Under the pieces are notes generated by a model. The model saw only the letters and a program-made list of their open reading frames with translations, was not told where the DNA came from and did not search any database. A stretch of 64,000 nucleotides of DNA, taken from contig CM049307.1 in assembly GCA_026874595.1 (NCBI GenBank), positions 60,642,870 through 60,706,869 of the forward strand, given 5' to 3'. This stretch comes from Sipunculus nudus (Eukaryota > Annelida > Sipuncula > Golfingiida > Sipunculidae). The position numbers were made by a program, and so were the translations under genes. This document shows positions 12,301 through 63,416 of the stretch, piece after piece (positions within the stretch are counted from its first letter, which is position 1; every line of letters begins with the position of its first letter).

Positions 12301-15300
12301 GAAATATAACTAATTAACAGCATAAAATAGGGCAAACAAAGCCTGATCTCTAATTCTGCTGAGGCAGGAAAATAATGAACAAATGTTTGTATTAAATCCT
12401 CATTTTTTTATCACATCAATTTTTTTAAAATTTAAGTTTATATGTCTATACATTTCCAATATAACATATATATCTGAATATAAAAGTTTATTCATAATTC
12501 TCAATTGCATCATCATAAATCTTAATCTTGTCAGAAAACACTACATCATGCATACAAATGTTTATTTATTTTTTACCACAAAAATATATCTTTTAAATCT
12601 GCAAAACAATAAATATCTAAAAATAATACTTGATTTAGATTTCACAATTGTTAATTGTGTCTTTATTTATCCATAATGTTCTTCATATTTTATAAATTTA
12701 AGCATACTGATGGGTTCAATTATATTTGTTAAAATCATTTAAAAGAAAATTTCTTTAAAAATGCCACATTACACAACATTGCATCTTCTGGATTACACCT
12801 TGAATTACTTTTTCAAGGAAAATTTTTGCATGTCGAGTTGAAACAGCATTACAATTAAAGAGATACAGTGAAAACAATAACAATTACTGCATAACACTTG
12901 GTGGGTTGGGTTTGGAGGGGGGGGGGGGGGGGGTGATTGGGATGGTGATATGAGAATAACTGTACACCTGTCACAGCAAGGGATCTCCCCAATTGACTGT
13001 AACAAATCAGAAACCCTGGCATAGCTGACTTCCAGTGACCTGGAGTGGGACCCTGCATCTGTAATCTGTAATCAAAGCAAATGACTACAATAGAGCCTCA
13101 AGAAAAAAAAATAAAAAACTAGCTTAATTGTCAAGCTTTTATTTTCAAATTTCAGATTTAAACATATTAAATATTTATGTTTACATGCTTTGAAAATTAA
13201 ATCAATGGTACTAACATGAAAAAAACGTGCTATGGTCAAAGTTGGGCAAAATTTAAGGTACTGATTTTATTTTTATGCTAATAACTTAAAAAATTTACAA
13301 AATTCAGATCTAATTTTGGGTAAACAATTGAATCTTAATTAAACATAGTTATATACTTGGGAAAATAGACTCTTAGTTTCAAAATTTTTCATGTTTAGTG
13401 AGTGAATATTTTTCCTAATTTTTTACAAAGTCCATTATGTTCGGGCCTATAACTTAAAGAATTTAAACTGAACAGACTTAATTTCTGGCATTTACATAGG
13501 AACTATATAGAGGAATATTTATGATAATTATGAGGAAAAACAGATCAGTGGTTTTGATATAAGGCAGTCCTGAAGTGTGAAAATAGGTTTTTAATAAAAA
13601 ATTGAGGTTTTTCCTTAATTTCTCAAAGGAACGAAGTCGCAAAGACCCAGTTTTCAGCTTGGTTGGAGATCTTGGGGACATCTAACATTATGCTGAATTT
13701 TGGATTCCTAGGTCTTAAGGTTTCAAAACGTGCCACATCTATGGACGGACAGACGGAAGGACGATGGACAATGGACCACAACAATAGCTCAGATGACTTA
13801 TAGTCAGCTGAGCTAAAAATTCTAAGAAAATCAGTGATTAAATCAAGATTATGGCAGATCTACTGTCACATGCTAAACATTCAAGCTATTGTCCCAAAAT
13901 ATCATGCATTTTATTGTTTCATCTGTGGTAAGTCTTGATACTTGCATTGATGAGGTTATCTGTTAGCAGACCATCAGGTTTGAGAACTTACACTGATGAG
14001 GTTATCTGTGAGCAGACCATCAGGTTTGAGTACCTCCACTGATGTGGTTATATGTGAGTAGATCATATTTGAGTACTTACACTGATGTAGTTATATGTGA
14101 GTAGATCATATTTGAGTACTTACACTGATGTAGTTATATGTGAGTTGATCATATTTGAGTACTTACACTGATGTGGTTATATGTGAGTAGACCATATTTG
14201 AGTACTTACACTGACGAGGTTTTATGTGTGTAGACCATATTTGAGTACTTACACTGATGTAGTTATATGTGAGTAGACCATATTTGAGTACTTACACTGT
14301 TGTAGTTATATGTGAGTAGACCATATTTGGGTACTTACACTGATGTAGTTATATGTGAGTAGATCATATTTGAGTACTTACACTGATGTAGTTATATGTG
14401 AGTAGATCATATTTGAGTACTTACACTGATGTAGTTATATGTGAGTAGATCATATTTGAGTACTTACACTGATGTAGTTATATGTGAGTAGATCATATTT
14501 GAGTAGTTACACTGATGTAGTTATATGTGAGTATACCATATTTGAGTACCTACACTGATGTGGTTATATGTGAGTAGATCATATTTGAGTACTTACACTG
14601 ATGTAGTTATATGTGAGTAGATCATATTTGAGTAGTTACACTGATGTAGTTATATGTGAGTAGATCATATTTGAGTAGTTACACTGATGTGGTTATATGT
14701 GAGTATACCATATTTGAGTACTTACACTGATGTGGTTATATGTGAGTAGACCATATTTGAGTACTTACACTGATGTGGTTATATGTGAGTAGATCATATT
14801 TGAGTACTTACACTGATGTAGTTATATGTGAGTAGACCATATTTGAGTACTTACACTGATGTAGTTATATGTGAGTAGACCATATTTGATTACTCACACT
14901 GATGAGGTTATCTGTGAGTAGACCATGGGACTTGAGTGTGGCCAGGGCTTGGTCTCGGTCAGAGGTCAGCACTTTAATCAGGTCATCCCTCTGCTGTAGC
15001 TCCCTCTGACACTCTCTTAAACCAGCTTGTGCCTGGTTATAAACATGAACATACTAGTTATCAGTAATGTCATACACGTTTATCAACAGACACACACATA
15101 AAAGATTATTATAACCTATGTTAAACCAAACTTTAAATTTACACTGAAAACTAGATGTGTCGGAACGACACGAATGCCCCAGCCTGGGGCAAATCAGAAA
15201 CATTTGTTAAATTTTGTAAAATTTTTTAAGTTCAGGAGGTGTTGTATGGTCAAAAGTAGGTCAACAAGGGCAAAATGCAAACTCTATGTGTAACAGGTCA

Positions 15301-18300
15301 TTATAAAGCAACACACTAAAAATCAGGCCAGTATCTACAGGCATTGTGAAAAAAGTCCATACACGTGCATTTTTCATAAAAATTTCTGTCTTTCATAAAA
15401 TTTTCTATGTTCAGGATCTGTCATATGGTCAAGAATGGGTCACCTGGAACGAAACGCGAACTCAATCTGTAAGTGGTCATTATGCGCCCACAGACCAAAC
15501 ATTAGGCCAGTATCTGTAAGCACTGCATTGTGAAACTAGAATATTAGCAAAAGCTGATAATCAGTTATAAATTTAAATTGGAGAGGTATGTACCATGTTT
15601 CATAACAATCCACCAAATGGTTCCTGAGATGTAAGCTTCTGAGTGTTTTTGTAAAATCAGCTCTAAAACAAAGAAAAATAGGTCAAGGTCACCCATCTTT
15701 GCACTTGACCAACACTTTGTTGATATACATCTTCACTGATGAAATAAAATTCCAACGGTGAATCCTTTTAGAGATATCCCGCTCACAAGGCCAAAATTGA
15801 AAAATCTGATAAAAATTAATTAAAAAATCAGAAAATGCAGGTGGCGCCACCAAAATTGTGCAGCACGTACAGACCATCAGTCCCAATGAGCATAGTACGT
15901 TTTGTGAAAATCCACGCAATGGTTCCTGAGATATAGGCTTCTGAGTGTTTTTCTATAATCAGCTCTAAAATGTAGTAAAATGGGTCAAGGTCAACCATCT
16001 TCGAACTTGACTGAGATTTTATCGATATACATCTTCACTGATGAAATAAAATTCCAACTGTGAATCCTCACAAGTTAATCGGCTCACAGGGTAAAAATTA
16101 ACAGACGCGGGACGGACAGACAGACGGACAGCTTGGGTGATGACAATAGCCCATCAGCCTAGGAGCTGAGGGCTAAAATCGGTTGTACATGTACATTTGT
16201 CATGAAAATTTAAATTTTTCATGAAATTTTCTATGTTTAGGAGCCGTAAAACAATCAAAAGTAGGTCAACTGGGACGAAACACAAACTCCATCTGTAACT
16301 GGTCATTATCTGCCCACATACCAAAAATCAGGCCAATATCTGCAGGCATTGTGAAAAAAAGTCTGTACATGTGTATTTGTCATGAAAATTTATATTTTTC
16401 ATGAAATTTTCTAAGTTAAGGAGCCGTAAAACGGTCAAAAGTAGGTCAACTGGGACGAAGCTCAAACTCGATCTGTAACTGAACCATATCTGCCCACACA
16501 CCAAAAATCAGGCCAATATCTGCAGGCATTGGGAAATAAAGTCTGTACATGTACATTTGTCATGAAAATTTCTATCTTTCATGAAATTTTCTAAGTTTAG
16601 GAGCCGTAAAACAGTCAAAAGTAGGTCAACCGGGACGAAACGCGCACTGGATCTGTAACAGGTCAGTATCTGGCCACACACCAAAAATCAGGCCAATACC
16701 TGCAGGCATTGGGAAAAAAAACCGTACAACTGTTTGATTTCGGAATGACGGAAGGACAGAATGACGGACATGGGAAAAACTATATGCCCCGGCCACTTTG
16801 TGGCAGGGGGATAAAAATGTATACAAAGTTCACAGATTTGCTTCATTTGATAATTTGTTATGAAAATACTAAGAATACATTGCTCACACTAACTTTAAGC
16901 ACTATTATTTATGTTGACAAGATCTTTGTATCTTGTCTTTCAATGCTGATCACTTCTCCCCACTAGCTATCACTTCAAATTCATCTTCAATTTAATTTAT
17001 GCTTTCAAAGGGGTTCTACAGTTAGCTGGTTGGCCTAGTGGAAGCATATGCACTCATTATAATAGCAATCTCAGTCTGAATCCCTGTACAAAAGGTCAGT
17101 GTAGGATGGACTTAGGTGGAGGTGCACACTTTATGGTACATGAATATTTTAATTACACACCTCGTCTCTGGTTTTGGTGAGGCTTTTTACCAGATCTTCT
17201 GAATGTTCATACTGGTTCCTCTCTAAGTCCTGTAGGCGTCGCTGCCAGTCAAGGTCAAGCTGTGCTGCTCTCCTCTCCAGTGCTGACTCCCTTTGAGATG
17301 CAGCTGTCAACTCCCGCTGATACCTGTCAAGTCATTAAATCACATCATCAAACTGATGACTGATGATTTTAGAAGATGGATCTAAGGATGAACTAGATAA
17401 TAGTAAAGTATAAACTTGGAAGATAATAATCAAATCTTTTATATTATAAATGGTGGTCACTCCTAGGTCCATATTTCTATCAAATCAAACTTTTCAGTTT
17501 TTTTTTTAATTATCTCCAAGAAAACAGGGGAAATGGCATAGTGAAAAGGAGTATGATATGTAAATATCAGCCACCCACCTTTCTCAGTGAACAGGTCATT
17601 TACAAGAGCAAGTACTGATGCTTATGACTCAATGACAGCTGCCCAGGTTTAATATATATATAACTAGTCATTTCTTGGCACCACAGGTGCCATAGCCATA
17701 TATATAGTATCCCCAGACAATTAACCCCCCCCCCCCTTTAAGAATAGGCACCCCCACCTTTAGCAGCATATACTGACACTTGGTTTCATCTGTCAACTTG
17801 AGAAACAATATTTTTCACAAAATATGGGGGCCAATATGGTGAATCACTCTTGAGAAAAGGTGATTAATCTATACTATAAAAATGGTCAGGTAGGTGGTGC
17901 CACCTGTCTGGTTGATGATACATGGCGGCATGCCGTATCCTTTGTGCCAACTTGTATATTGTTGTGCAATACTATTCTCAGGAATGTCAGTGTGTCACTA
18001 ATGAAGTAACTTTTGTATATATTAATTGTCTGGTCATTGATGTAAATGTATGTTCTATCCATTAGTCTTTAGTCTTAGTGTATTGTAGTTTAGGCTTTTG
18101 TGTATATTTAGTCCGCATGTATTGCATCAATGGCAACATGTATTCCTGTATGTTTTTGGGCGCAATTAACAAAACAAATAGCTTTTATTTAAAGTCTATA
18201 GTTTAGACAACAGTGTTGAGTATTAAATCTCGTCACATGTTGGTGAACAATAATTATGCATTCTGGTGACAGTATTTAATATTTCAGATAAATGTTACCT

Positions 18301-27300: not shown

Positions 27301-29700
27301 GGGGAAATAGAGTGTTGCATATTAGCATGGATGTTTGCAGCCAAATTGTTTATGTAGGTTGCCGCCCCTACCACAAAATCCAGAAAGCCGTCCAAGTTGT
27401 ATACATATGCAAAATTTAAGGCAGATAAGTCAAACCACTACATGTATATGAGTGATTTTAGCCCGTGGCAGACAAACAGTTGGACGCTGAGCAAAAATGG
27501 TTGCAGGTGACGCCACCAGTTTTGCGTATGATAAAGAGCTATGTGAGAACTATACACATGCAAAACTTTGGCCCAATCGGTCAAACGGTTTCCAAGATAT
27601 GAGCTTGGATGTCTGCTGCATAAACTAGAATGCAGGTGGCGCCACCTGTCATAAAATCAAGAGAGCTGTCAGGGATGTATAAACCTGCAAAATTTTAGGC
27701 AGATATGTCAAACCACTGCCGAGATATGAGTGATTTTATCCCATGGCAGACAAACAGACAGGAGCTGTGCAAAAATGGCTGCAGGTGGCGCCACCAGTTT
27801 TGCATATGATGAAGAGCTATGTGAGATCTATACACATGCAAAATTTTGGCCCAATCGGTCAAACGGTTCCCGAGATATGAGCTTGGCTGTCTGCAGCGTA
27901 AACGTGAATGTAGGTGGCGCCACCTGTCAAAAAATCAGAAAAGCTATCCAGGATGTATACGCATGCCCAATTTCAGGTGAATTAGTCAAGTCACTGCGAG
28001 ATATGAGTGATTTTAACCGAAGGCAGACGAACAGATGGACACTGTGCAAACATGGTTGCAGGTGGCGCCACCAGTTTTTGTGTATGTTATAAAGCTCTCC
28101 AAGGGCTACATTTGGCAAAAAAATTTTCCTGATCGTTCAAACAGTTCCCGAGATATGAGCTTGGATGTCTGCAGCGTAAACGTGAATGTAGGTGGCGCCA
28201 CCTGTCATAAAATCAGAAAAGCTATCCAGGATGTTTACGCATGCCGAATTTCAGGTGAATTAGTCTAGTCACTGCAGAGATATGAGTGATTTTAACCCAA
28301 GGCAGACGAACAGATGGACACTGTGCAAACATGGTTGCAGGTGGCGCCACCATTTTTTGTGTATGTTATAAAGTTCTCCAAGGGCTACATTTGTGCAAAA
28401 AAAATTTTCCTGATCGGTCAAACGGTTCCCAAGATATGTGGGTTTATGTGTGGAAACAGACGCACAAACGGACGCAGAGCGCAGAGGAAAGGAAAGAGGT
28501 CAAACAAAATCGGGGCACAGCAGTTCACATGTGACCCAAACATAATCCCGGGTTTCGTAAAATTCTGCCCAGCGGTTACGGAGGAGTTCTCCGGACACCT
28601 ACACCGCGGCGGCGGCGGCGTGCAGCTGAAAACATAGTATCCGCAAAACTCTGTTTTGGCGGATACAATTAATTGGAAATGTGTTTTCTGGTAAATTCCC
28701 TTGGAAAAACCTTTGATTATATAGTCTATCAATCCTATACTTGAATATTTTATACTTAATAACTTGAGGCCAGTCTATAGACAAGACAGCGGTTAACAGC
28801 TTTTCACTAATCCTGACCAGTTAAGACATCTAAATTAGTAAAAGAAACCTCACTTCTTACAATAAATCAATATTAGTTATGTTTTACAAAATATAGCAAA
28901 ATATTAATATATGAAAAAAAATATGATATGCAATACACACATCACCAATTCCTGATAAACTGATAATATATTGTACACCCCTACTATTTAAAGTGGAGCC
29001 TGCATATTAGGACCACCTTTCCAACTGACCAAAGGTCGGAGATGGTCCAGAGTTGGTCCTATCAGACAGATCACTTATAGCAAATGTGAATGCTTATGGT
29101 TTACTCAAGGTTTGTCTTTTTAGACATGTGTTCTCAACAGATAGTAGTGGTCTGTACTGGTTGTAAACCATGTTGGATGACTGAAAGGACAAGGACTGAT
29201 GATCCAATATTAATTGATTATTTTACGTACTTTCTATATTAATGTGCTTTATAGAATTATACTGAAAATATTGACTGACTAAATTCAGTGTGACTTGTAC
29301 ATCACGCTGAACAATACGGAATATGACCAAATTGCTGGAAATTGCTCCCTGCACAAGGTTAAGTTTTAATGCTTTTTGTCACTGTTTGTCCTGTCTTTCT
29401 TAATCTCTGACAGGATTAGTATATCCTCCTAGTAAATATAAATACATTGTGAGTACATACATAGTCGTTTGTGATTGATTATGCAAAATACAAAAAATCT
29501 AATCAATAATGAAAGAAAATGACCAACCATCGATTTAATCGATTAATCGGCACAACACTAATAGACAGGTGGTGTTTCAGTATGGTTTGTTGGTTAAATG
29601 ACCTGACCCACCTGAGTTCCTGTATATGTTTCCATTCCTTCTCCTTCTGGGCAGCCAGCTCCCTCAGAGAAGACTCTGGTGCCATTATCTCAGTCATCAT
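6127..29700 (-). CDS. CCDC57: CCDC57 orthologue, coiled-coil centrosomal protein (17 coding exons, 3' end outside window)
   Basis: Seen: 17 exons in descending order (29612-29700, 26613-26767, 24499-24667, 23425-23546, 21851-21939, 21335-21492, 20306-20380, 18945-19145, 18299-18457, 17161-17323, 14898-15032, 11409-11571, 10563-10742, 10172-10272, 9545-9736, 7934-7993, 6127-6376) with GT-AG borders and matching phases give about 820 residues of almost continuous coiled coil. There is no signal peptide or membrane segment. Recognised from remembered vertebrate CCDC57: an N-terminal KEKEWKHIQELR, then EDFKYNLRLLGERDAELDKY, then KREHEFRKQADEMSATVL, and RKHEQMDRLCKEKE in exons 7-8, all in the family's order. 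Known of the family: CCDC57 is a centrosome/centriolar-satellite and microtubule-associated protein linked with CEP63 and centriole duplication. The last exon seen ends in phase 1 with no stop, so the C-terminus lies left of the window. No other family fits as well. Confidence 0.9.
6719..7671. mobile_element. Repeat A copy 2 (truncated at its right end)
   Basis: The same GACAAGCGACTACGTGTATC head and alternating GGTGGCGCCACC half-units as the copy at 27214, but it stops at 7671 without the GGCGGATAC terminus. Lies in CCDC57 intron 16. Confidence 0.75.
7934..7993 (-). CDS. CCDC57: CCDC57 exon 16
   Basis: A 60-bp phase-0 exon between tttttcag and gtgaag, encoding LSALKMDVAQAAPTINFGAQ. Supported by splice sites and phase; there is little homology to judge by. 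Confidence 0.72.
8590..9282 (+). repeat. Pair of about 53-bp direct repeats flanking 0.6 kb
   Basis: AACTATTTATTCCTGATCTA..TGGTCCAAGTGATTCT occurs at about 8592-8643 and again at about 9229-9280 with one substitution. The 0.6 kb between includes the 133-bp inverted-repeat element. Confidence 0.6.
8999..9131. mobile_element. Small inverted-repeat element (133 bp)
   Basis: TGGCAGTGCCC at 8999-9009 and its exact inverse GGGCACTGCCA at 9121-9131. Possibly a tiny MITE; no duplication seen. Confidence 0.4.
9545..9736 (-). CDS. CCDC57: CCDC57 exon 15
   Basis: Acceptor aaaacag, donor gttagt; phase 0 in and out; 64 codons, residues about 654-717. Strong heptads with LLEARKEADEYYKSNIEKN. Confidence 0.88.
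10172..10272 (-). CDS. CCDC57: CCDC57 exon 14 (possible alternative donor inside)
   Basis: Acceptor atcacacag, donor gtcagt; phase 1 in, phase 0 out; residues about 620-653. An internal CAG/GTAAGG starting at 10234 is a better donor match than the distal one, and using it would remove exactly 21 codons in frame. Confidence 0.82.
10563..10742 (-). CDS. CCDC57: CCDC57 exon 13
   Basis: Acceptor tttattcag, donor gtaaaa; phase 1 in and out; residues about 560-619. Two short coiled coils (YVKNLEKELTEMKSKLRLL and IRSHVEALNATIG) flank an acidic, Ser-rich linker. Confidence 0.88.
10755..11080 (+). repeat. Two-copy tandem duplication (about 166 bp)
   Basis: TCTGGTACA..TATGGTTAT through AACAGCAAGAAGTGACAGCA occurs twice with a 166-bp offset, just upstream of CCDC57 exon 13 in the gene's sense. 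Confidence 0.7.
11105..11351. mobile_element. 247-bp MITE with AGCCCCATTTACAC inverted ends
   Basis: AGCCCCATTTACACATAAAA at the left, inverse GTGTAAATGGGGCT at the right. No clear target duplication. Lies between CCDC57 exons 12 and 13. Confidence 0.65.
11409..11571 (-). CDS. CCDC57: CCDC57 exon 12
   Basis: Acceptor gaattcag, donor gtcagt; phase 0 in, phase 1 out; residues about 506-559. NDNLRAVIHQMRQQMETL matches the conserved family helix before a polar linker. Confidence 0.9.
11932..13814 (-). mobile_element. D element copy 2
   Basis: Starts AACAAGGGACCCATGGGA and ends with the AGCTCAGATGACTTATAGTC hairpin terminus. Parts such as 13200-13740 align with 3770-4400; the middle (12200-13100) is divergent, AT-rich and holds a poly-G run. 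Lies in CCDC57 intron 11. Confidence 0.75.
13948..14930 (-). repeat. CCDC57: Minisatellite built from the exon 11 end plus 5' splice site of CCDC57
   Basis: Twenty-two intronic units (two of 46 bp, then twenty of 43 bp) abut the exon's own copy. On the minus strand each reads exon-like CTCAA..CT.CTCACA.ATAAC..CATCAGT followed by a donor. Sixteen intronic units carry GTAAGT; others have GTAACT, GTAGGT or no usable GT. The two 46-bp units farthest from the exon keep the best exon match (GATGGTCTGCTCACAGATAA); the 43-bp units share a 3-base deletion. Confidence 0.95.
14898..15032 (-). CDS. CCDC57: CCDC57 exon 11 (its 3' end is the parent of a minisatellite)
   Basis: Acceptor ataaccag, donor gtgagt; phase 0 in and out; 45 codons, residues about 461-505. 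Contains LTSDRDQALATLKSHGLL, a conserved family segment. The last 39 bases plus 7 bases of intron are repeated 22 times in the following intron. Reading past the real donor meets TAA within 33 bases, so use of any repeated donor would truncate the protein. Confidence 0.9.
15151..16816 (-). mobile_element. Repeat E copy 1 (Helentron/HINE-like) carrying a G element
   Basis: Begins CTAGAT plus hairpin GTGTCGGAACGACAC and ends GCCCCGGCCACTTTGTGGC. Internal tandem units of about 181 bp (GTCCGTACATGTGTATTTGT, AAGTAGGTCAACTGGGACGA). Read on the minus strand it ends hairpin + CTAG, as Helentron 3' ends do. Element G occupies 15536-16178. Confidence 0.75.
15536..16178 (-). mobile_element. Element G inside repeat E copy 1
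   Basis: Starts CTAGAATATTAGC and ends with a GACGGACAGACAG run and the AGCCC..GGGCT hairpin followed by AAAA. Contains one GGTGGCGCCACC at 15840. The same E/G junctions recur at 42344 and 49237. Confidence 0.7.
17023..17135 (+). repeat. Possible tRNA-derived SINE remnant
   Basis: TGGCCTAGTGG fits the pol III A box (TRGYNNARNNG); GTCTGAATC about 45 bases on is a B box with two mismatches. It does not fold as a tRNA gene. Confidence 0.3.
17161..17323 (-). CDS. CCDC57: CCDC57 exon 10
   Basis: Acceptor cttgacag, donor gtgtgt; phase 2 in, phase 0 out; residues about 406-460. LDLDWQRRLQDLER matches the remembered family motif around a conserved Asp-Trp-Gln-Arg. Confidence 0.92.
17965..18237. mobile_element. 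Solo LTR (273 bp) with 5-bp target duplication
   Basis: Begins TGCAATACTATTCTCAGG and ends AATCTCGTCACA, flanked on both sides by TGTTG (17960-17964, 18238-18242). TG..CA ends with a 5-bp duplication are typical of LTR retrotransposons. No internal region remains. Confidence 0.7.
18299..18457 (-). CDS. CCDC57: CCDC57 exon 9
   Basis: Acceptor tattcaag, donor gtaaca; phase 2 in and out; residues about 353-405. Ends QRKHDIER, continuing into YQREL in the next exon. A solo LTR lies in the intron about 60 bp beyond the donor. Confidence 0.9.
18945..19145 (-). CDS. CCDC57: CCDC57 exon 8
   Basis: Acceptor ttacacag, donor gtcaga; phase 2 in and out; residues about 286-352. Completes RKHEQMDRLCKEKE and continues as a Gln/Glu-rich coiled coil. 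Confidence 0.92.
19146..20305. other. CCDC57 intron 7, nothing recognised
   Basis: AT-rich, no repeat family of this window, no plausible exon. Introns at 18458-18944, 20381-21334 and 23547-24498 look the same. Confidence 0.5.
20306..20380 (-). CDS. CCDC57: CCDC57 exon 7
   Basis: Acceptor tttttatag, donor gtaagt; phase 2 in, phase 2 out; residues about 261-285. A 75-bp exon, found by phase and homology rather than as an open frame. Confidence 0.88.
21335..21492 (-). CDS. CCDC57: CCDC57 exon 6
   Basis: Acceptor cttttaag, donor gtaaga; phase 0 in, phase 2 out; residues about 209-260. Begins VKLLSKEIELVKAS and contains WELQDMAAMK, both in family order. Confidence 0.9.
21851..21939 (-). CDS. 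CCDC57: CCDC57 exon 5
   Basis: Acceptor ttttacag, donor gtgggt; phase 1 in, phase 0 out; residues about 179-208. KREHEFRKQADEMSAT closely matches the remembered vertebrate sequence. Confidence 0.92.
22039..22341. mobile_element. Repeat F copy 1
   Basis: CTAGAATTTTGCATACCAAG head and an AATATTCCTTGACAAC middle shared with the copies at 22755 and 52748. A poly-G run interrupts it; the end is degraded. Confidence 0.65.
22755..23080. mobile_element. Repeat F copy 2
   Basis: Contains the hairpin GCATTCTAAGGAATGC and the shared GCCCATATTCCCAGGTTCAT block; ends GGGATGAATGCATATCC. Lies in CCDC57 intron 4, 400 bp from copy 1. Confidence 0.7.
23425..23546 (-). CDS. CCDC57: CCDC57 exon 4
   Basis: Acceptor gcttgcag, donor gtccgt; phase 2 in, phase 1 out; residues about 138-178. 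Heptad-rich segment including HDHRLKELEEELDAQRREI. Confidence 0.9.
24499..24667 (-). CDS. CCDC57: CCDC57 exon 3
   Basis: Acceptor tttttatag, donor gtgaat; phase 1 in, phase 2 out; residues about 82-137. Charged coiled coil ending HRLREKQAHVDQYRR, matching the family's conserved His-rich patch before the next helix. Confidence 0.9.
24703..25210 (+). repeat. Repeat I copy 1
   Basis: Degenerate internal units of about 150 bp (CTGATCTCATTAAAT.., GTGAATTTTGTTGA..), ending TAACGG.(C/A)TGA.. and ATGGGTATA..CCATAATAC. Same layout as 26080-26580. Confidence 0.6.
25430..25935 (+). repeat. Degenerate AGTCCAAGTCTGAGTC repeat
   Basis: Imperfect GAGTCCAAG/TCTGAGTCC runs at 25460-25600 and 25800-25930 with unique sequence between. 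Open frames across it are by-products. Confidence 0.6.
26080..26580 (+). repeat. Repeat I copy 2
   Basis: Direct copy of the preceding family (ATATGCATG.., GGATTTTGCTGGAAATC..) ending just before CCDC57 exon 2. The stretch between the copies (25430-25930) is a degenerate AGTCCAAGTCTGAG repeat. Confidence 0.6.
26613..26767 (-). CDS. CCDC57: CCDC57 exon 2
   Basis: Acceptor ttttacag, donor gtaagt; enters in phase 2, leaves in phase 1; residues about 30-81. It carries the most family-diagnostic stretch, EDFKYNLRLLGERDAELDKY. Confidence 0.92.
27214..28667. mobile_element. Repeat A copy 3 (complete)
   Basis: The best copy: CTAG head, inverted GTATCCGCC/GGCGGATAC blocks, and palindromes at 27635, 27784, 27913, 28061, 28191 and 28340, i.e. 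alternating about 149 and 130 bp. Lies in CCDC57 intron 1. Confidence 0.8.
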
Positions 29701-29710: not shown

Positions 29711-29849
29711 CTGGAAGAACAAAATCACACGGCAAATTATAGTACACAATTTTTTTAACCTTTTTTTGGTGGAGGTAACTGCCTCCATTTTGTTAATGCT
29801 AGCATAACGGAGTATACAGTTTAATTATGTACATCTGCAGAATTCTATT

Positions 29850-29983
29850 CCGGTTTCAGACTACTTGACAGGGCATTATCACACGCTTCCTGTTCCGGTT
29901 TCAGACTACTTGACAGGGCATTATCACACGCTTCCTGTTCCGGTTTCAGACTACTTGACAGGGCATTATCACACGCTTCCTTT
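29850..29983 (+). repeat. Three exact-phase copies of a 45-bp unit
   Basis: CCGGTTTCAGACTACTTGAC.. starts at 29850, 29895 and 29940. The copies are nearly identical, so the expansion is recent. Lies just upstream of the CCDC57 start exon. Confidence 0.9.
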
Positions 29984-31900: not shown

Positions 31901-33283
31901 GCTATGTTCTACCCTGAGCCACAGAAGCCAGTAAATTATAGCACACTTGAAGTGCTGTGATAAAGTGAATAATTGTAATTTGCAGTTCATTTTCTGTGTG
32001 GACAGTCAATGAACATAACATGCACAAAAAATATTACAGTCACATTCAGTGCTGTTGGAATGGTCTGACAATGATGTGACATTATTGGCTTTGTTAGTCT
32101 ACTCCAGCACCATCAAGTGGAACTCAAAGAAGTGTGAGAGTTGGATTTAGCATTTACCTGCACCATGTGCATGACACCTGAAGCAGCATATATTATACTT
32201 TGATCAATGCCAATCACAATATTGGCACTATATTGTAAATTTAATGCAATATTGTGTGGGGGGGGGGGAATGTAATTATTGTACCTTTTAATCAATATGT
32301 TTCATATTTATTGAAACCAAAATATTTAATGGACTTGTTAAAAATGTCATCTTTTTTAACACATATAAATTACATTAAATATTTTTTTTTATACAAAATC
32401 AATCATGTTTATTAATCAATGTTAAATACTTGTACTGGTATATGGTAATTTATGCAACTATCATAATTAATAATAAATCACTTTTTATTTTACCTTTATT
32501 TATAGATTAATGGCTAAATCAAAGGAAAGGATAAAATTCCTGACACCTTATTCTTCTAGTTGTAAACACTATAGCATTAAAAGTAAATCATTTAATTAAA
32601 GTAAATTAAAGTTGAACAGCATTAGACATAATCACTGCATAGATTCAGTTATCTGGTTATACAGAGAAACAGCTAACTGCATGAGATGTAGGTTATCTTA
32701 CTCGTTTATATCTGAAGGTTTACATTATATTTAACCAAACTGACTAAACGACAACATACAACATGTATCTTTAAGCTGTAAACGTCACTGGAAATGTAAC
32801 TTATGGAGTCACCATTTGTTTTGAAAGTCCCTCGTCCTGTCATTACACGGACGGGTCCGGTTTACGGTTGTCGTAAAGGTAAACAAAGTTGTCGTTACTT
32901 CCGATACCAAGAGTTTTTTTTATATTATTTATCAATGTATACATTCCATAGCTAATCTTTGTCATGTTTCCCTAAATCTACCATTATAATGTATTCAAAA
33001 TATATTTGAGTTATAAATTTGGAAATAATGTGACCCAACTTTTACGACATCTTCTATGGAAACAGCGCGCTGAGAGGAAGAGGATACGTGTGTGTAACTG
33101 TAAGACCTGTTTCGTGTCAGGACGTGTCCTGACATGTTACCTTAGCAGTTCTGCAGATTATAAATTAACAATGCCCAATGAGACTTGTTTGACGCACAAC
33201 AGTATGGAACAACAGCCAGTATCCACAATTTACAAACTGGATAATTTTTAGTTCAGCTGACTACAGCGATCACCCTTTGAGTG

Positions 33284-33759
33284 GGGTCCGCCTAAACACC
33301 CAAAACACCGGTGTTTTGGGTACGTGTGACGAAACACCACGAAACACCCTTTTAAATTCGAATTTGAAGCAAAACACTTGTATCATTTAATAAATCATCA
33401 TCTGTTGGATATGTTAATACAGAATTTGTGCCACTTTTCTGTAAAATTAAAGAAAGCAATAGCGTTTTGTACAATTGACAAGTGCGCTGCTTGATTGCGA
33501 CTTGCGCCACTAGGGGGCAGGGTCATAGCTGGCATATACGGCTGCGGTGGGCGCCGGTGAACCGACCACGACACGAAACACTCGTTTTTATTTTTATGAC
33601 ATGAATTTATGAAACAATATTGCAGAGATATATTTATCAGATGATTATCTATCGATTGGTGTTACGTTTTTGGTTCAGGTTCGAAGTGAAGTGGGTGTTT
33701 CGTGGTGTTTCGTCACAGATACCCAAAACACCGGTGTTTTGGGTGTTTAGGGGGACCGC
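33284..33759. mobile_element. 476-bp hAT-like MITE with 8-bp target duplication TTTGAGTG
   Basis: TTTGAGTG at 33276-33283 and 33760-33767 flanks inverted termini of about 65 bp (GGTCCGCCTAAACACCC against GGTCCCCCTAAACACCC). Each arm holds a perfect 24-bp palindrome (half ACCCAAAACACC) at 33298-33321 and 33721-33744. An 8-bp duplication fits hAT. No transposase; short frames crossing it are chance. Confidence 0.85.
33507..33520 (+). promoter_or_regulatory. CTCF-like motif inside the hAT-like MITE
   Basis: CCACTAGGGGGCAG matches the bilaterian CTCF core CCASYAGRKGGC at every position. It lies between the two divergent genes. Confidence 0.45.
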
Positions 33760-35913
33760 TTTGAGTGTGACACTGTCCGTCATCTTCTTGGACTTCTTGG
33801 ATTCTATGTTAACATCGAAATTGACCTTTTTTTTGGGCTGCACAAATGACGATTCAAGCGACTGTGCTTTGACACAATTAAACCTTGAATCCAAAATTCA
33901 ACATACAGTTAGATCTCTATAAGATCTCCTACCAGACCTGAAATTGTCGCACAATCTTTTTTTCTTTCAAGAATTAAAAAAAACCCTCCATTTTCTATTA
34001 AAAACTTATATTGTTACTCTTCAGGAATGCCAAATATGTAACTGCATTAAATGCTGCTATATCCAGGATCCTGGATACTGCCGCATAAAAAGCTTTAGAG
34101 TAAACTGGAGAACTTAAAACCTTTGTCAGGAAAAAAATTGTGTAAAATCAAATACTGCGTTTATGACAAGGAAACTGTAAGTAATCTAAGGAAGATATAG
34201 TACTTTATTAGAATGACCAAGAAATTCAGCTAAATATTATGTTTTTGTATATAAACAAGACTCATTTTTAAAATTTTGTAACCCTGGTGCTTGAAACTGT
34301 CTCAGAATCTGGAACAATGAACTGCTTGGTCTTTGCTCGCTGAGCCAACACGGCCCATAACCACTGGTTACACAGGTGGCTGCCAGCCAGCCGTGGCTGG
34401 GGGAAAACCCAGAGCAAACATTGTTCCCCGTGTATCACTGTTTATTAGGACAATGTATATTCTTCTAACCAACATTTAACGTGGACAAACACTGTCTAAG
34501 TGGTATGTTATATGCGCATTTGATAAGAATATCTTTATTTTATAACGCATAACACATTTTTAGATGAAATATAAGAATTTAATTGTCATGTGGAATGTCT
34601 CCAGTTTCCTCAAATCATGTTTTAGGGCTCTCGCTCAGCATAGCGTAGTTAGAGAGCACATGAGCTAGGGCTACTGAATATGTAAAGCACAAGTTCTGTT
34701 TAGTTCCTTTTTGGCACAAATTTATTCTCATTAGTTTCTGATGCACATATAAAAAAATTAGATAAATTATTGGTAATTTGTAAAAGTTATGAACCACTGA
34801 GAACATTACCTTAATAAAAAAAGCAAGAAATATATTTTCTCACTTAGCATATGGTAATTCTTGAAGCTAGAGACTTTTTTCAAGGATATATCTTTATTTA
34901 ATCAAGATCTTATTATCTACCAGAAATTTTTAGCATAACATTTAAAATCCCTGCTGTCACAAGTGGACAGTTCCCCCCCCCCCCCCCACACACACACAGC
35001 AATATACATCAAGTGAAATGCAATAATTATTGTTTAAACTCCACTCCAATGTCCAGAACTTTTCTTGAAATAGTAATTTAAAGAGCAACCCAGGAGATGC
35101 CATATTGTTGTAGTGTGGCATTTTTAAAGAAATTATTTTCCTAAATAAATCTCTCAGGTAGATTATTTTACTTATTTGATACCCATCAGCATTAGGCATA
35201 TTTTGTAAAGAGACAAACGGACAAAATAAAATGGATTTCTAAGGGATGAGTTTTAAAGCTAGATATGATAATGTCTGATCACCTTAAAAATTAAATAATG
35301 TATTAATTGCTTGATTATCTACTGTCTCATCACTAGGTCAGTTCAATGTTTCTGCACAAGAAGTCATGACAAGTATCATTTCTTTATGAGATAAAAGATG
35401 TACAAACATCAGCAACAGTAAAAACAGTATATCCTGGATCCAAATAAACTCAAAACTCCAATTAAGTAATAGTCCTTGGACCCAGGTGATATTGTTAAAA
35501 CCCAACAATATTTTATATCATGTTTTCACAGTAGGTGGACAAAGAAGAAAAATAAGACAGATACACAGAAGGTGCAAAAATAGAACATGTGTCTCACATC
35601 TTTGGCAGAATATTTCTCAATTTTCAATATTGATCATTCGCAATAAATTTGGGATATATGTCACAGGACAAGCTTTTATTAAGTGTCACCATGGGAACAT
35701 TCATATCATGTTTTAACAGTTCATGGTCAAAGCTGGTATGACTAATGTTTTCACTTGGACAAAACCCAATCATAACTTGTTCAAAGGCAAATTAAGATCA
35801 TACCAAATGTTGCCTGTTTATGTTTTGTTCTTTTTTTTAAATCTGATAGAGAAAACTGAATTTATTTTATGGGTAATGATAAATTTTTCAATATTCCTGT
35901 CTCTCTTTTTTAG
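33760..35913. other. Intergenic/5' region of the LRR gene, no gene recognised
   Basis: AT-rich. 34850-34930 is a scrap of D element interior (GAAGCTAGAGACTTTTTTC); a poly-C run at 34974-34987 is followed by (CA)n. A leader exon of the LRR gene may lie here or near 32850, but I cannot place it. Confidence 0.4.
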
Positions 35914-36118: not shown

Positions 36119-37208
36119 ATGAAGGAAAAAACATTGGAGCCAAGTGGTAGGAGAGAGGTTTCAGTAAATGGTGACAGTGATATTTTTCGGTATCAGTCAC
36201 AAGAACTGACTAAGGTTCCAGAGGAAGTTTACAATTGTTCCTGTGTTCGAGAGTTGTTTTTGGACTATAATGAACTTTCTTCCTTGCCAGATGATATCAG
36301 TTGCCTTGAAAATCTTGAAGTGTTGTCAGTTATGGGCAACCAGTTGGAGGAATTACCATCTGAAATAAGTGTCTGTGTCAGGCTTAAGGAGCTTTACCTG
36401 AATGAGAATGAAATTGACTCTTTGCCAGATGACATTACCAAACTAAAAAAGCTGAAAACAGTCAATGTTGTTGGGAATAGGCTGCAGTATCTTCCTACAC
36501 ATATTGGTGATCTCACAAGCTTGGAGGAACTTTATGCAGATGAAAACGCATTACTGAGCTTGCCTTTAACAATATGTCTTTTGCCAAAACTGAAAGTGCT
36601 TGAGCTGGGCCACAATAAATTATTACATCTGCCAGAGAATTTAGGTAATTTGACTGGAGTGGAGATTTTGGATTTGAGTGATAATAAACTCAAAGAGCTA
36701 CCTTCCACCTTCAGTAATCTTTCATCACTTCAGTGTTTGGTGCTCTCAGGCAATTGTCTGACTCATCTGCCTTCCCAGAATGCCTCTCAATCATGCCTCG
36801 TGAAATTTTACTGTGATAACAATCAGCTTATGGAACTTCCTCCATGGGTATCTTATTTGCCGAACCTTGAAGAATTCTCAGTTCAGAATAATCATCTGCA
36901 GCAGGATGCTATCCCAGAATCCTTTGGTCAAGTCAGCCAAAAACTGAGAATTTTTGATCTTGCAACAAATTACTTGGATACCTTGCCTGACTCCATTGGA
37001 AACTTGCAACAGCTGGAAACTTTTCATATAGGAAGTGTGCAGGTAGAGTTAGAAAGGAGAGCATTTTGTAATGGAAACTACCTGGTGAAACTGCCAGATA
37101 CATTTGGTAAAATGAAATCATTGAAACATGCCAGGTTGGATGAAAACCAGTTGGTGGAGTTACCAGAGAGCTTTGGAGAGCTGTGTAATCTAGAATTCCT
37201 AGATCTAG
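36119..37208 (+). CDS. LRR gene exon 1 (coding)
   Basis: One 1090-bp exon encodes residues 1-363 and about 15 LRRs, such as LKELYLNENEIDSLPDDI. The start ATG has A at -3. Donor gtcagt, phase 1 out. The reading frame continues past the donor to a stop at 37262, which is intron, because exon 2 restores the LRR register (LDLGQNRLHELPDSF). Confidence 0.93.
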
Positions 37209-40200
37209 GTCAGTATCATAGGTTTATATTGCACTGTGCTTTACTCTTTCATACTGGTAAATAAGTATCATAGTACACATGTGATTAAGTAAAAAGGGTG
37301 TCAAAGGCTGGTTTAAGACAAACTCAAAAAGGAAAGGCAACTGAAGTCTTCACTGAAGTTCAGTGCAGATAGTCTAGTATAGTGGAAGAGCATTCATCCA
37401 AATGCCCCTTGCCATAAATAAAATAATGTTATATATGCAATATAATGATTAATGCTAATGCTTTAAAGTAATTCTACTTCTCTAGCAATTGGCAGTTGAC
37501 AGAGTCTGTTGGACTATCTAAGGTTGATAACACTGATGACATATTATAAATAACAATTTTGTCTTAATGTCCCTTCATCTGAACAAAAAGAGAAAATGTT
37601 TCATTGAGAAGTTTGTGTTAAACTTTAATGCCATCCAAGCCAGGTATTTGGAAATTTGAAAGCATAAGAGGTAATGATAAAATATGGTCATCCTCTTCCA
37701 TATTTAAAAGATGTTACTAAATGCAGGTCATGCTGGAAGTGTTAAAAAGAATAGAATTAGAAAATAAATCAAGAGAAACACCAGTGTCAATTGTATGGAC
37801 ATGCCATGAATTTTCTTTGATTGACAGGACAGAATCGTCTCCATGAACTGCCAGATTCATTCAGCAATCTGGTGAATCTTCGGTACTGCCAGCTTTCCAA
37901 AAACCACATTGAACTTCTGCCATCAAAATTTGGTCAGCTGACTAAACTAGAAGAGCTGCGTTTAGACAACAACAGGGTTTGTTTTTATTACAGCTAATTT
38001 TACTTTAAAAATTACAAAAAATTTACGATGTATATCTTTCAATGTATGATTATATGTCATACCAAAACACCCATTGTCTTGAATTGCTTACATTTAAAAC
38101 ATAATTTGTAGTGCCCATTGTTTTCCCGTGGAAAATGGAAGAAGATACAGGTATACAAAATTAATAGCCTGATAGAGCACACTTGCCGCTGGTCTCATCT
38201 GAGGATACGCATCTGTTTAGTTAAGGCCTACATTGTTTTTACACCAGAGCATATCAATTGTTCCTTGGTCTGAAACCATTATATGTATTCTCTATGGACA
38301 GATACACCACTGGTATGTAACTGGCCAGGTCTTGCAATGTTAATTACAGATCAGATTGTTCCTTGTCACATGATGATCATTCCCTTCAGATTTTATGGTG
38401 ATGAAAAGGTTGCATATCATAAATGTTTGGTATTCTTGGTTTGATGAAGATTTCTGAAAACATAAACCAGTACCTCCTGACTTTGTAATGATATCTTGTT
38501 TTCTATTACAGCTAGCAGAGCTGCCAGGCTCCTTCAAGAACCTCACAAAAATGATGTCTTTGTCTTGTTAAATCTATTACTAATACAAGTATTACAGCTA
38601 GCAGAGTTACCAGACTCCTTCAGGAACCTCAAAAACCTGATGATTTTGTCTTGTTATCTATTACAGCTAGCAGAGCTGTCAGTCTCCTTTAACATCCTCA
38701 CAAACCTGATGACTTTGTCTTGTTATCTATTACAGCCAACAGAGCTGCCAGTCTCCTTTAAGCACCTCACAAACCTGATGCCTTTGTCTTGTTGTCTATT
38801 ACAGCCAACAGAGCTGCCAGTCTCCTTTGAGCACCTCACAAAAATGATGTCTAAAGTTGTCTTGTTATCAATTAAAGCTAGCAGAGCTGCCAGTCTCCTT
38901 TGAGCACCTCATAAAAATGATGACTTTGTCTTGTTATCTATTACAGCCAACAGAGCTGCCAGTCTCCTTTAAGCACCTCACAAACCTGATGACTTTGTCT
39001 TGTTATCTATTACAGCCAACAGAGCTGCCAGTCTCCTTTGAGCACCTCACAAAAATGATGACTTTGTCTTGTTATCTATTACAGCCAACAGAGCTGCCAG
39101 TCTCTTTTTAGCACCTCACAAAAATGATGTCTTTGTCTTGTTATCTATTACAGCTAGCAGAGCTGCCAGTCTCGTTTAAGCACCTCACAAACCTGATGAC
39201 TCTGGACTTATTTTGTAATAATATGACTGAGGTGCCAGATTCCCTCCATCATCTCACAAAACTCACAAGGCTCGACTTAGATGGTGTAAGTACGAAATAT
39301 TTTTTTCTGATCAGTGGCAAGGTGATGTGATGACAAGTGTGTCTGAATGGGGCCCCATTTTCCATATTTTCCTGTAAGCTTGAGGAATTTGACATTATTT
39401 TTAAGAATTTGGCAAAAGATAAACACCAGTGTATCCACCTGGTGAACTTGGCCCATTGAAAACCTGTCCAGGATGAACCCTGCCAAAGTCATGTGGACCT
39501 TTCCCAGCACAATGACTGGTAATATTTAAGTTGCAGTAAAAATTATGAGAGTTCTATCTTATAAGTAAGGGGTTGGGGCAGATTTGAGCTAAATTTGTGT
39601 GTGTATTCTGTTAGGGACTTAAAGGGACATAATCAGGAGCAATATTATGCCTGTTCTTTCACACAATCAGTTCATTTTTGCTTTAAAGAAAAGTTTCTCA
39701 GCAAAACCATCCAGCACACAGTCTCAGTACCGTGCATATGGCTGTGTAACACCTTGTTATGGCTCTGCATGTTTGTAAACATAGTCCATGTGTGTCTGTT
39801 TACATAACAAGGCCGCATGACTGAGGGTCAGTTGTGAACAGCAACACGCGATGTTTCAGCCAGCAGGAACATGTATTACATTTTGGGGGCAAAGTCAGTC
39901 AGGGGATCTCATGATTGGCAGGTGTTGTGGCTCAGTGATGTACAGAGTCTAAACACGCTGTGTTTATGTTGACACCTATGATTGCACCCCGGTCCACTGT
40001 TTTCAACAATCGTTTACAGGAGCAAACAAACGTTTCATGGCAATATTTTGGCAGGTGTAAAATTAATTATAACGGGAAGAAACTTTGTAGGTGATTAGGC
40101 CCGTTTAAGTGGAAGTAATTTTTGTGCATCGATGAGTAAACATTCTGAGCAAATATTGGGTGCATATTCTCTTATGAGGTGGTGTATTCACTTAGGAATT

Positions 40201-43200
40201 CACTATACTAATGGCCTAGCAGGTATGCAAGAAAATAATGAACTGGTATTGTCATTGGTGAGATGGTTCTCACTTGAATGGTAATCAGTGAGTGTGTGTC
40301 AGTGTGAATATTTAAATTGATATAAAATTACATGAATGGGCAGATTCCCGGTGTAATACATAAAAGACACATAAAAATGGTAAAAGTTCAGATGAATCAT
40401 CATGTTACACTACCTCTACTTACAGAACAAGTTTGGCCTCTCAGCTGCGTCTGTTCCCAACATCAGCCACAGGAATTATTACCCCCCACGTGACCCCAAC
40501 CTGAAGAACAACTGGAGAGGCCGAGTCAGGGGCATACAGCTGTCAGACGAAAACAAACAGGTAAACCCTCAGTGTCAACCAAGGATTCATTAATGTTTAC
40601 AGGCAGTTAAGTAGGGCACATCAACATAAATCAATACAACTGTTTTTCATGAATCAAAATTATATATTGGTTGATGAGTCCTGTTATTTATCTTTCTGGA
40701 TACTGCTCTTGCTGGAGTCCCTTCAAAGAAATTATTACATTTATAAGTAATGCCAAGTTTATTTCATAAAATTAAATTAAAAATGGTATACATTTTGTGT
40801 CATTCATATGCAGCATTTCAGAAATCAGAAACTTTAAACATGTGACATCCACTCTGGTTGGACTGATTACACCGTTTCTGGCACAGTGCCAAGAATCAGA
40901 CCAAAAAGAGCTTGATCCCTGGTATAATCAGACCAACCAGAGCGGGTGCCACATGTTTAAAATTTGTGCTGAATGCACAAGGAGATACCACACTCCCATT
41001 TGTGTGATTACAATTTATTGCTCTTTGTACACCCTGGTGTTCTGACCCAGAGGACCTTGCTATACAAAGCAGCAGTTAAAACAAAGGAGACCTGGGATGA
41101 TTGCAGTGTATAACCGCTGCATGAGGAGCGTATTAGGTAAAGTAAAATGGTGAGTCTTGAGTGTATAATCACTGTGTGAGGAGTGTATTTATGGATTTAA
41201 CATAATGGTTTATGGTTTCAGGTCATCAGGGGGTCAGAAAGTGAGAGTGACACAGAGGAGGATCCACCAAATAAAATAAAATATGACAGCAGAGTCATGT
41301 GGGCAGCCATGAGGCGCAGCCTGGCCCTGTGGAAGTCACATGACAGTAAGGCTGAAGAACGACCAGCGTGGAGACCAATGGCCAGTCATCCAGCTGTGGA
41401 GCCAGGGATGTATGATGATGGGGAGGATGAAGAGGAAGGAGATGAGCAGTGTAACAACATCAGCAACGGAGGTTAGATAAAACTTACCACACTCTATTGA
41501 CTAGTTCTATAGAGCACATTTACTGTAAAGCCTTTTTATTATGGACACCTCTTAATAACTGATATGGGGCCCTCTTGTGAATGTGCACTTGGAGGTCCCT
41601 GAGCTTACTAATACAGGCACCCCTCTGTTGCTAGCAAAACCCAGGTCTCACCATTGTCAGCAATTGGGAGTTTCCACTAGATTTAATTAGTGCACCATAA
41701 GTTTCAGGTTTAAATATGATTTTTTATGCCCCCGCCACAAAGTGGCCGGGGCATATAGTTTTACCCATGTCCGTCATTCCGAAATCAAACAGTTGTACGG
41801 ACTTTTTTTGGCAATGCCTGCAGATATTGGCCTGATTTTTGGTGTGTGGGCAGATAATGACCAGTTACAGATCGAATTGGCGTTTTGTCCAGGTTGACCT
41901 ACTTTTGACTGTTTTACGGCTCCTAAACTTAGAAAATTTCATGAAAAATAGAAATTTTCATGACAAATACACATGTACGGACTTTTTTTTGCAATGCCTG
42001 CAGATATTGGCCTGATTTTTGGTGTGTGGGCAGATAATGACCAGTTACAGATCGAGTTCGCGTTTCGTCCCGGTTGACCTACTTTTGACCGTTTTACGGC
42101 TCCTAAACTTAGAAAAATTCATGAAAAATAGAAATTTTCATGACAAATACACATGTACGGACTTTTTTTCGCAACGCCTGCAGATATTGGCCTGATTTTT
42201 GGTGAGTGGGCATATAATGACCAGTTACAGATCGAGTTCACTTTTTGTCCCGGTTGACTTACTTTTGACCGTTTTACGGCTCCTAAACTTAGAAAAATTC
42301 ATGAAAAATTGAAATTTTCATGACAAATACACATGTACAGACGTTTTTAGCCCTCAGCTCATAGGCTGATGGGCTATAGTCGTCACCCAAGCTGTCCGTC
42401 TGTCCATCTGTCTGTCTGGTGTCTGTCCGTCTGTCCGTCCGTTCCGCGTCTGTTAACTTTTACCTTGTGAGCGGGATATCTCTATAAGGATTGACCGTTG
42501 GAATTTTATTTCATCAGTGAAGATGTATATCGATAAAATCTCGGTCAAGTTCGTAAATGGGTGACCTTGACCCATTTTTCTACATTTTAGAGCTAATTAT
42601 AGAAAAACACTCAGAAGTTTATATCTCAGGAACCATTGTGTGGATTTTCACAAAACTTACTATGATCATTGGGACTGATGGTCTGTATGTGCTGCACAAT
42701 TTTGGTGGTGCCATCTGCAATTTCTGATTTTTTAATGAAATTTTATCGGATTTTTTCAATTTTGGCCATTGTGCAGGATATCCCCAAAGGTATTCAACAC
42801 ACACTGCCAAAAATAATTTTCTTATCTAAGGAAATATTAGTTATTTTCACTTGAAACAAGTAAAATTTACCTAAAACAAGGAAGTACCTAGAAATTAATC
42901 CTTAAATCACAAGAATGAAGCCCATCTTTTTGGTAAATAAGTAAAAATACCTACAGTTTAGAAAAAGTTACTTGATATAAGTTAATTTACCTTCAGCTGT
43001 AGGCTTTACTCCCTGATTTTAGAAAATTTAACTTTAGAATGAGTGAGGTGCAAGTTAAGCTTACTAAAATGAATGTAACCACATATTAAACTTTATGCAA
43101 AATACAATTTTAATCACTGTATATTGTAACATTGTCAGTTAGGTTTACAGTCCTACATCTAACAAATGCTACATAAACGGGGTGCATAAAAGGGGCTGTA

Positions 43201-62218: not shown

Positions 62219-63416
62219 CTAGATGTGTCGGAACGACACAAATGCCCCCGCCTGGGGCAAATTAGAAACAATTGTTAAATTTTGAAACATTTTTTAAGTT
62301 CAGGAGGTGTCATATGGTCAAAAGTAGGTCAACAAGGGCAAAATGCAAACTCGATCTGTTACGGGTCATTATCAAGCAACATACCAAAAATCAGGCCAGT
62401 ATCTGCAGGCACTGAAAAAAAAATCCATACATGTGCATTTTCCATAAAAATTTCTGTCTTTCATGAAATTTTCTAAGTTAAGGAGCCATAAAACGTACAA
62501 AAGTAGGTCAACTGGGACGAAATGCGAACTTGATCTGTAACTGGTCATTATCTGCCCACACACCAAAAATCAGGCCAATATCTGCAGGCATTGTGAAAAA
62601 AACTCCGTACATGTGTATTTGTCATGAAAATTTATATTTTTTATGAAATTTTCTAAGTTAAGGAGCTGTAACACGTACAAAAGTAGGTCAACTGGGATGA
62701 AACGCAAACTCGATCTGTAACTGGTCGTTATCTGCCCACACACCAAAAATCAGGCCAATATCTGCAGGTATTGCAAAAAAAAGTCAGTATACATGTGTAT
62801 TTGTCATGAAAATTTATATTTTTCATGAAATTTTCTATGTTCAGGAGCCGTAAAACAGTCAAAAGTAGGTCAACTGGGACAAAACGTGAAGTCAATCTGT
62901 AACTGGTCAATATCTGCCCACACACCAAAAATCAGGCCAATATCTGCAGGTTTGTGAAAAAAAGTCCGTACATGTGTATTTGTCATGAAAATTCCTATTT
63001 TTCATGAAATTTTCTAAGTTAAGGAGCCGTAAAACGGTCAAAAGTAGGTCAACTGGGACGAAACGCGAACTCGATCTGTAACTGGTCATTATCTGCCCAC
63101 ACACCAAAAATCAGGCCAATATCTGCAGGCATTGCGAAAAAAGTCCGTACATGTGTATTTGTCATGAAAATTTATATTTTTCATGAAATTTTCTAAGTTA
63201 AGGAGCCGTAAAACGGTCAAAAGTAGGTCAACCGGGACGAAACGCGAACTCGATCTGTAACTGGTCATTATCTGCCCACACACCAAAAATCAGGCCAATA
63301 TCTGCAGGCATTGAGAAAAAAAGTCCGTACAACTGTTTTATTTCGGCATGATGGAAGGACGGAATGACGGACATGGGTAAAACTATATGCCCCGGCCACT
63401 TTGTGGCGGGGGCATA
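62219..63416 (-). mobile_element. Repeat E copy 3 (no G insert)
   Basis: CTAGATGTGTCGGAACGACA head, six tandem units of about 181 bp, and GGCGGGGGCATAAAAA end. The most regular E copy and the empty-site reference for element G. Confidence 0.8.

Follow-up and report, generated by a model that had tools for sequence, protein, structure and literature searches.

When the boundary between an intron and the following exon is itself repeated in tandem, which of the resulting 3' splice sites is joined to the upstream donor, and what becomes of the protein? This question is raised by a locus of Sipunculus nudus, in which ten copies of an intron-end/exon-start junction lie one behind another at positions 38491-39201 of the 64,000-nucleotide stretch of DNA analysed here (the window), within a predicted LRR gene. 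As far as the excerpts of PMC5389562 go, the choice between equal 3' splice sites has so far been studied with artificial constructs carrying two sites. The present array is a natural counterpart, in which eight well-scoring sites, six with the same 21-nt tract, share one donor.

The host gene and its repeated splice junction

On the + strand of the window, five coding exons can be joined, from ATG to stop, into a predicted LRR protein of 586 amino acids; the model is a prediction assembled from open frames and splice signals, and it covers coding exons only. Exon a (36119-37208) begins with the ATG at 36119, has an open frame and ends at the donor tag/gtcagt. Exon b (37828-37976), which was placed by its frame and splice signals, ends in phase 0 with ...LRLDNNR and is followed by the donor agg/gtttgt. 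Exon c, the third coding exon, would in its shortest form occupy 39154-39285, encode two LRRs and end at the donor ggt/gtaagt. Exon d (40426-40560) and exon e (41222-41476, with the stop) were placed by frame, and both were matched in a search with the C-terminal 183 amino acids. Joining exon b to exon c keeps the LRR register. Seven Pfam families, all of them LRR families, are found in the 586-aa protein at E values up to 0.001, the best being PF13855 (E 1.4e-49). Among the best 60 of 322 matches to solved sequences, LRRD1 is at the top (E 1.8e-78) and SHOC2 is among the next. Judged by its Pfam LRR families and solved relatives, the predicted product is an LRR protein of the SHOC2/LRRD1 type. 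No death domain (compare the name LRRD1) was detected by Pfam, at E up to 0.001, in the five modelled exons; further exons could hold more.

The four donors of the gene score 3.01 (exon a), -0.84 (exon b), 1.77 and 3.30, and its three acceptors other than those of the array score 5.58, 4.46 and 4.31, on a generic matrix that is not trained on the host species. The exon b donor is thus the lowest-scoring of the four, which agrees with the description of gtttgt as weak in the first-pass annotation of this DNA, and seven other GTs in 37851-38511 outscore it. It was retained because, of the subset of GTs that were tried, no other was seen to connect the two frames with the LRR register kept.

Two further features of intron b may be recorded. 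Overlapping the donor, where the intron begins, is an acceptor-like copy on the + strand at 37979-37996 (TTGTTTTTATTACAGCTA). Aligned to the unit 1 acceptor with a single 1-nt gap, it is identical at each of the 18 aligned bases, and none of 2000 control sequences from a first-order Markov model of the intron attains its score of 15 (maximum 14). It could hardly serve as an acceptor for the overlapping donor, because the intron would then be 17 nt long; it may be left over from the events that gave intron b its 5' end and its weak donor. Deeper in the intron, an acceptor-like site (4.77) and ctg/gtatgt at 38313, whose score of 3.68 is the highest of any donor-like site in intron b, would delimit a 65-nt pseudoexon at 38248-38312.

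Each copy in the array consists of a tract ending in AG followed by the first 48 nt of exon c, and the sequence supports the earlier claim of ten tandem 3' splice sites, each fused to the start of an LRR exon. On the + strand, the exon copies of units 1 to 9 occupy 38512-38559, 38598-38645, 38667-38714, 38736-38783, 38805-38852, 38878-38925, 38947-38994, 39016-39063 and 39085-39132; the tract and AG of unit 10 follow at 39133-39153, and its exon copy starts at 39154. The spacings between successive exon copies are 86, 69, 69, 69, 73, 69, 69, 69 and 69, so that the unit of 69 bp originally described holds for seven of the nine and fails after unit 1 (86) and after unit 5 (73). Independently, TRF reports a repeat at 38590-39201 with a period of 69, 8.8 copies, 89% matches and a score of 892, that is, a unit of tens of base pairs in tandem, as in a minisatellite extending over a splice site. 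It also gives the array a 280-bp period, about four units.

The consensus tract, TTGTCTTGTTATCTATTACAG, is 21 nt long and occurs unaltered in units 3, 4, 7, 8, 9 and 10; unit 5 departs from it by one change, unit 6 by two, unit 1 by three and unit 2 by ten. All ten tracts end in AG, nine of them as CAG, and the acceptors of units 1 to 10 score 7.87, 0.58, 5.28, 5.28, 5.04, -0.31, 5.28, 5.28, 5.28 and 5.28, which places eight of the ten between 5.0 and 7.9. The two weak sites are those of unit 2, whose disrupted tract has an extra AG at -10, and unit 6, whose tract ends in TTAAAG through a change of CAG to AAG plus one further change. Unit 6 had been said to have lost its AG. This was mistaken: the AG is retained as AAG and, with a score of -0.31, the acceptor would be weakened and not dead. 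For comparison, 168 further AGs taken from portions of the introns average -4.57 and reach at most 5.10. A single site with a score like those in the array is nothing special, since the + strand of the window has 3517 AGs, of which 79 score at least 5.27. What is beyond chance is the clustering of good acceptors and not any single score: within the window, no other stretch of the + strand is as dense as the 730 bp from 38512, with eight sites scoring at least 5, while the densest stretch of the - strand has four.

Candidate branch sites were sought with the motif yUnAy, and they occur within 60 nt of all ten acceptors. Nine of the ten have a candidate at a distance of 27-40 nt from the exon start, which falls within the preceding unit's exon copy or, in the case of unit 1, in the intron (CTGAC, with its A at -32). 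Unit 2 has candidates at -15 and -53 only, and in unit 6 an AG at -23 sits between the candidate at -40 and the acceptor. A CTGAT candidate at -27 is shared by units 3, 4, 5 and 8. The competition between near-identical acceptors that was foreseen for this locus can thus be upheld for units 3, 4, 7, 8, 9 and 10, with their identical tracts, but not for all ten, as unit 1 scores higher, units 2 and 6 are weak and the branch candidates differ. The mean unpaired probability of the acceptor regions ranges from 0.38 to 0.63 across the ten units without a trend towards unit 10, and RNA structure is therefore not used as an argument here. In a search for structured RNA, no Rfam family was found at its gathering score within the window. 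Among the GTs within the repeat units (38512-39201), the highest score on the generic matrix, -2.15, belongs to gct/gtcagt at 38678; the modelled exon b donor itself reaches only -0.84. The GT at 38678 is created by a substitution in unit 3 (CTGCCAGTC to CTGTCAGTC); GTCAGT is also the donor of exon a.

Composition and origin of the repeat unit

The intron end that precedes unit 1 (38491-38511, + strand, ATATCTTGTTTTCTATTACAG) lies outside the repeat proper and has the top acceptor score. It is identical to the unit 10 tract at 18 of 21 positions, whereas the LRR codons at the equivalent place in exon c (CTGGACTTATTTTGTAATAAT) agree with the tract at 6 of 21. These figures indicate that the unit is a copied splice junction and not a decayed LRR, and the intron end is the likely source of the repeated tract. 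It might be argued that the units are former coding LRRs that have decayed into intron, as the unit is exactly one LRR long (69 bp, or 23 codons, with the next LRR of exon c following 69 bp on, from 39154 to 39223) and the tract, when read in the LRR frame, contains no stop (LSCYLLQ). The LRR consensus includes an asparagine, however, and LSCYLLQ has none. Synonymous changes are not in excess either: of the 23 distinct departures from the consensus among the exon copies, 5 are synonymous and 18 are not, where 23.6%, or about 5.4 of 23, would be expected to be synonymous. The changes look neutral, as in non-coding DNA, with no sign of coding constraint. Nor does the array resemble a tandem expansion of coding LRRs, given its intron-like tract and the interruptions found for the three units that the first-pass annotation had named: a TAA behind unit 1, a frame-shifting 4-nt insertion behind unit 5 and a TAG in unit 9. 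A decayed coding array was rejected on account of the tract, and we regard it as very unlikely. The agreement of the unit with the length of one LRR may be due to chance, or to misalignment between neighbouring LRRs at the first duplication.

On the copied-junction reading, a tandem duplication spanning the last part of intron b and 48 nt at the start of exon c would have arisen by recombination or slippage between short intron/exon matches, and would have grown to ten copies. A possible seed for the first duplication is the pair formed by AATGATATCT in the intron (38487-38496) and AATGATGTCT in the exon copy, or else TGACT, a pairing made by eye and without a control; a related match between the intron and exon c (TTTGTAATGATAT / TTTGTAATAATAT) is weak, being reached by 39 of 2000 controls. 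The outcome would be a small minisatellite that has grown over a splice junction without destroying the reading frame of the gene.

An origin from a dispersed repeat or transposon was considered and rejected: in the assembly, neither the array (38473-39201) nor 37985-38500, which makes up most of the intron before it, was matched anywhere but at its own position, although these counts of one are lower bounds and a missing match does not prove absence. With the same reservation, the assembly search yielded no second copy of the array. A query covering only the C-terminal 183 amino acids revealed no paralogue or second haplotype copy; its five matches all belong to this gene, two of them being array units. 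As the array is known from one assembly, extra units might have been made by the assembler. Such an error is extremely unlikely, as the units are 64-99% identical in pairwise comparison and hence no exact stutter, the assembly comprises 153 contigs for 1.43 Gb, and the array, at 0.7 kb, should fit within one long read.

The window contains other repeats. Four tandem arrays with units of 278-336 bp (457-1218, 4402-6035, 6865-7673 and 27319-28365) have a consensus with the palindrome GGTGGCGCCACC, according to TRF. Three further arrays with units of about 180 bp (16184-16720, 41794-42348 and 62289-63331) appear by eye to form one family present in both orientations, and the second of them sits just behind the host gene; repeats of this kind occur in molluscs. 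A 43-bp unit is present in 23 copies (93% matches) at 13935-14926, and three identical 45-bp units (100% matches) are found at 29848-29981 within a 79-aa open frame. Inverted repeats that resemble, by eye, the remnants of small DNA transposons were seen at about 40832-40963, inside the host gene's final intron, and at about 33280-33760, upstream of the gene.

Reading frames and the choice of acceptor

All ten acceptors lead into the exon in phase 0, with LAEL or PTEL as the first residues, so that the earlier statement on phase is borne out. Entry at unit 1 ends at LSC followed by the TAA just behind the copy, 849 nt before the last exon junction. Entry at units 2-5 runs into a stop after the frame-shifting insertion behind unit 5, 517 nt before that junction, and entry at units 6-9 ends at the in-frame TAG of unit 9, 309 nt before it. 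Only entry at unit 10 leaves the 586-aa frame open. Thus, as had been claimed, full-length protein would be obtained from the last acceptor alone, and the outcome for the protein hangs on this site. By the usual distance rule of NMD, a stop far enough upstream of the last junction leads to decay, and all nine messages made from upstream acceptors are therefore predicted to be NMD targets. The choice of acceptor would also set the lengths of intron b, from 535 nt (unit 1) to 1177 nt (unit 10), and of exon c, from 774 nt (unit 1) to 132 nt (unit 10), with a following intron of 1140 nt. Junction counts over this range would read the effects of distance, order and exon size.

It is probable, in our judgement, that the array is a minisatellite laid in ten copies across a 3' splice junction, of which unit 10 supplies the acceptor used in the mature message. 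Most units would constitute a portable 3' splice site, comprising a branch candidate in the preceding exon copy, a short pyrimidine tract, an AG and an exon start. The acceptor whose AG ends at 39153 would be the main site joined to exon b, and the other nine would then lie inside the 1177-nt intron. It would be joined because it gives the smallest exon with the downstream donor; unit 10 is also the sole unit to keep the frame. Upstream acceptors would be used infrequently; after such use the remaining units would stay in the exon, leading to an early stop and, as predicted, to NMD. The sequence itself shows the array, its phases and stops, the identical tract of six units, the intron-like character of that tract and the lack of any sign of coding constraint on the copies, whereas the exon model, the main role of unit 10, the low upstream use, the NMD and the origin of the array are inferred.

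Excerpts of PMC9225289 describe how such choices are made in human genes. Alternative 3' splice sites overall favour the upstream one, a preference that is significantly reduced for long introns, and the authors conclude that, where exons are defined as units, the sites nearest to the far end of the exon are favoured. When sites are separated by more than 12-20 nt, the choice is said to fall at first recognition, with separate tracts and branch points (PMC9225289). Given long flanking introns and exon definition favouring the closest sites across the exon, unit 10 would be expected to be the main site and the others to see some use. With a beta-globin substrate carrying duplicated 3' sites, splicing was very inefficient and went exclusively to the distal site; duplicated strong 3' splice sites can be doubly occupied, and a substrate of this type was spliced poorly (PMC5389562, excerpts). 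It follows that the array might lower the splicing of intron b altogether.

Several findings count against unit 10. Its score is below that of unit 1 (5.28 vs 7.87), which is also transcribed first, and it is without the CTGAT candidate of units 3, 4, 5 and 8. Skipping of exon c would likewise stay in frame (542 aa), and the donor in the model was picked by frame and LRR register while seven GTs score better. If an upstream acceptor were to win, most likely that of unit 1, which is the first transcribed, scores best and bounds the shortest intron, most messages would stop early and little protein would be made. We think this unlikely. Besides its score and its CTGAC branch candidate, unit 1 is favoured by Reed and Maniatis's intron-centric rule of proximity, as PMC9225289 presents it, and by the overall upstream preference in the human data. 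Against it, an intact five-exon frame of 586 amino acids would not be expected to last in a long near-null allele, and the flanking introns (535-1177 and 1140 nt) are longer than the 365-nt introns of the exon-defined minigenes in the excerpts of PMC9225289, a mode in which upstream preference is reduced.

That all nine upstream acceptors lead to early stops, and that nine of nine keep their AG, could also be read as the mark of a selected regulator, in which poison acceptors, dependent on copy number, set the productive share, perhaps differently between individuals. In units 3-10 without unit 6, variable sites number 1 of 21 in the tract and 11 of 48 in the exon copies, but this difference is not significant (Fisher P 0.089), and with unit 6 included it becomes 3 of 21 against 12 of 48 (P 0.53). 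Moreover, 4 of 69 circular windows of 21 sites, the tract included, are equally invariant without unit 6, and 20 of 69 with it. Across all ten units it is the tract that is more variable (14/21 vs 18/48, P 0.036), as it is in units 2-10 (13/21 vs 18/48, P 0.071), mostly owing to unit 2. Retention of the AG does not demonstrate constraint, because the independent units are few. Thus, with ten units from one assembly, selection on the extra acceptors is not demonstrable either from the variability of tract and exon copy or from AG retention. In the human ABCA7 VNTR, skipping of exon 19 rises with the length of the repeat at the splice site, which speaks for a regulator, but use of the donor in the next unit does not change with VNTR size (PMC5954066, excerpts). 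A selected regulator is, on balance, improbable. Equally doubtful is its fuller form, a poison-acceptor rheostat in which the number and strength of nearly self-contained 69-nt units would set the fraction of transcripts reaching the productive acceptor, copy number would vary between individuals, and the eleventh copy, overlapping the donor, would be part of the device or of the origin of the intron. The reading that we prefer remains that of a minisatellite grown over the junction, with unit 10 as its productive acceptor.

Comparison with known systems

No natural array of 3' splice sites comparable in kind and size was found among the titles and abstract openings of open-licence literature, which does not imply that none has been published. 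NAGNAG acceptors lie a few bases apart and have one branch site in common. These and other tandem alternative acceptors resemble the array in presenting alternative 3' sites in a row, but the sites of the array are 69-86 nt apart and most have branch candidates of their own. The substrates of Reed and Maniatis (1986) were reportedly made constructs with two sites. In that work, as told in PMC9225289, and in GloC-2x3ss (PMC5389562), a single donor is contested by equal 3' splice sites. Judging from the excerpts, the substrates of PMC5389562 were made and had two sites, whereas the Sipunculus array is natural and has eight sites scoring at least 5.

In the potato RdRp gene, a tandem duplication over an intron-exon boundary made a new intron, the donor of which came from the exon copy (PMC4974935, excerpts). 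As here, the duplication runs over a 3' splice junction and copies the putative branch site, the pyrimidine tract and the 3' splice site. In potato, however, a single duplication was accompanied by a new intron, whereas in Sipunculus there are ten copies and the best GT of the units (38678) is the poor one described above.

The nearest precedent among the sources covered is the VNTR in intron 18 of human ABCA7, a mirror image of the Sipunculus array with donors in place of acceptors. According to the excerpts of PMC5954066, its 25-bp units flank exon 18 and include the donor of that exon, the first two bases of the unit correspond to a donor, and the donor of one unit is used, giving an out-of-frame message. 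The two loci are alike in that a minisatellite takes in a splice site. They differ in what is repeated: in ABCA7 it is a donor within an intronic unit, and in Sipunculus an acceptor together with 48 nt of coding exon in every unit.
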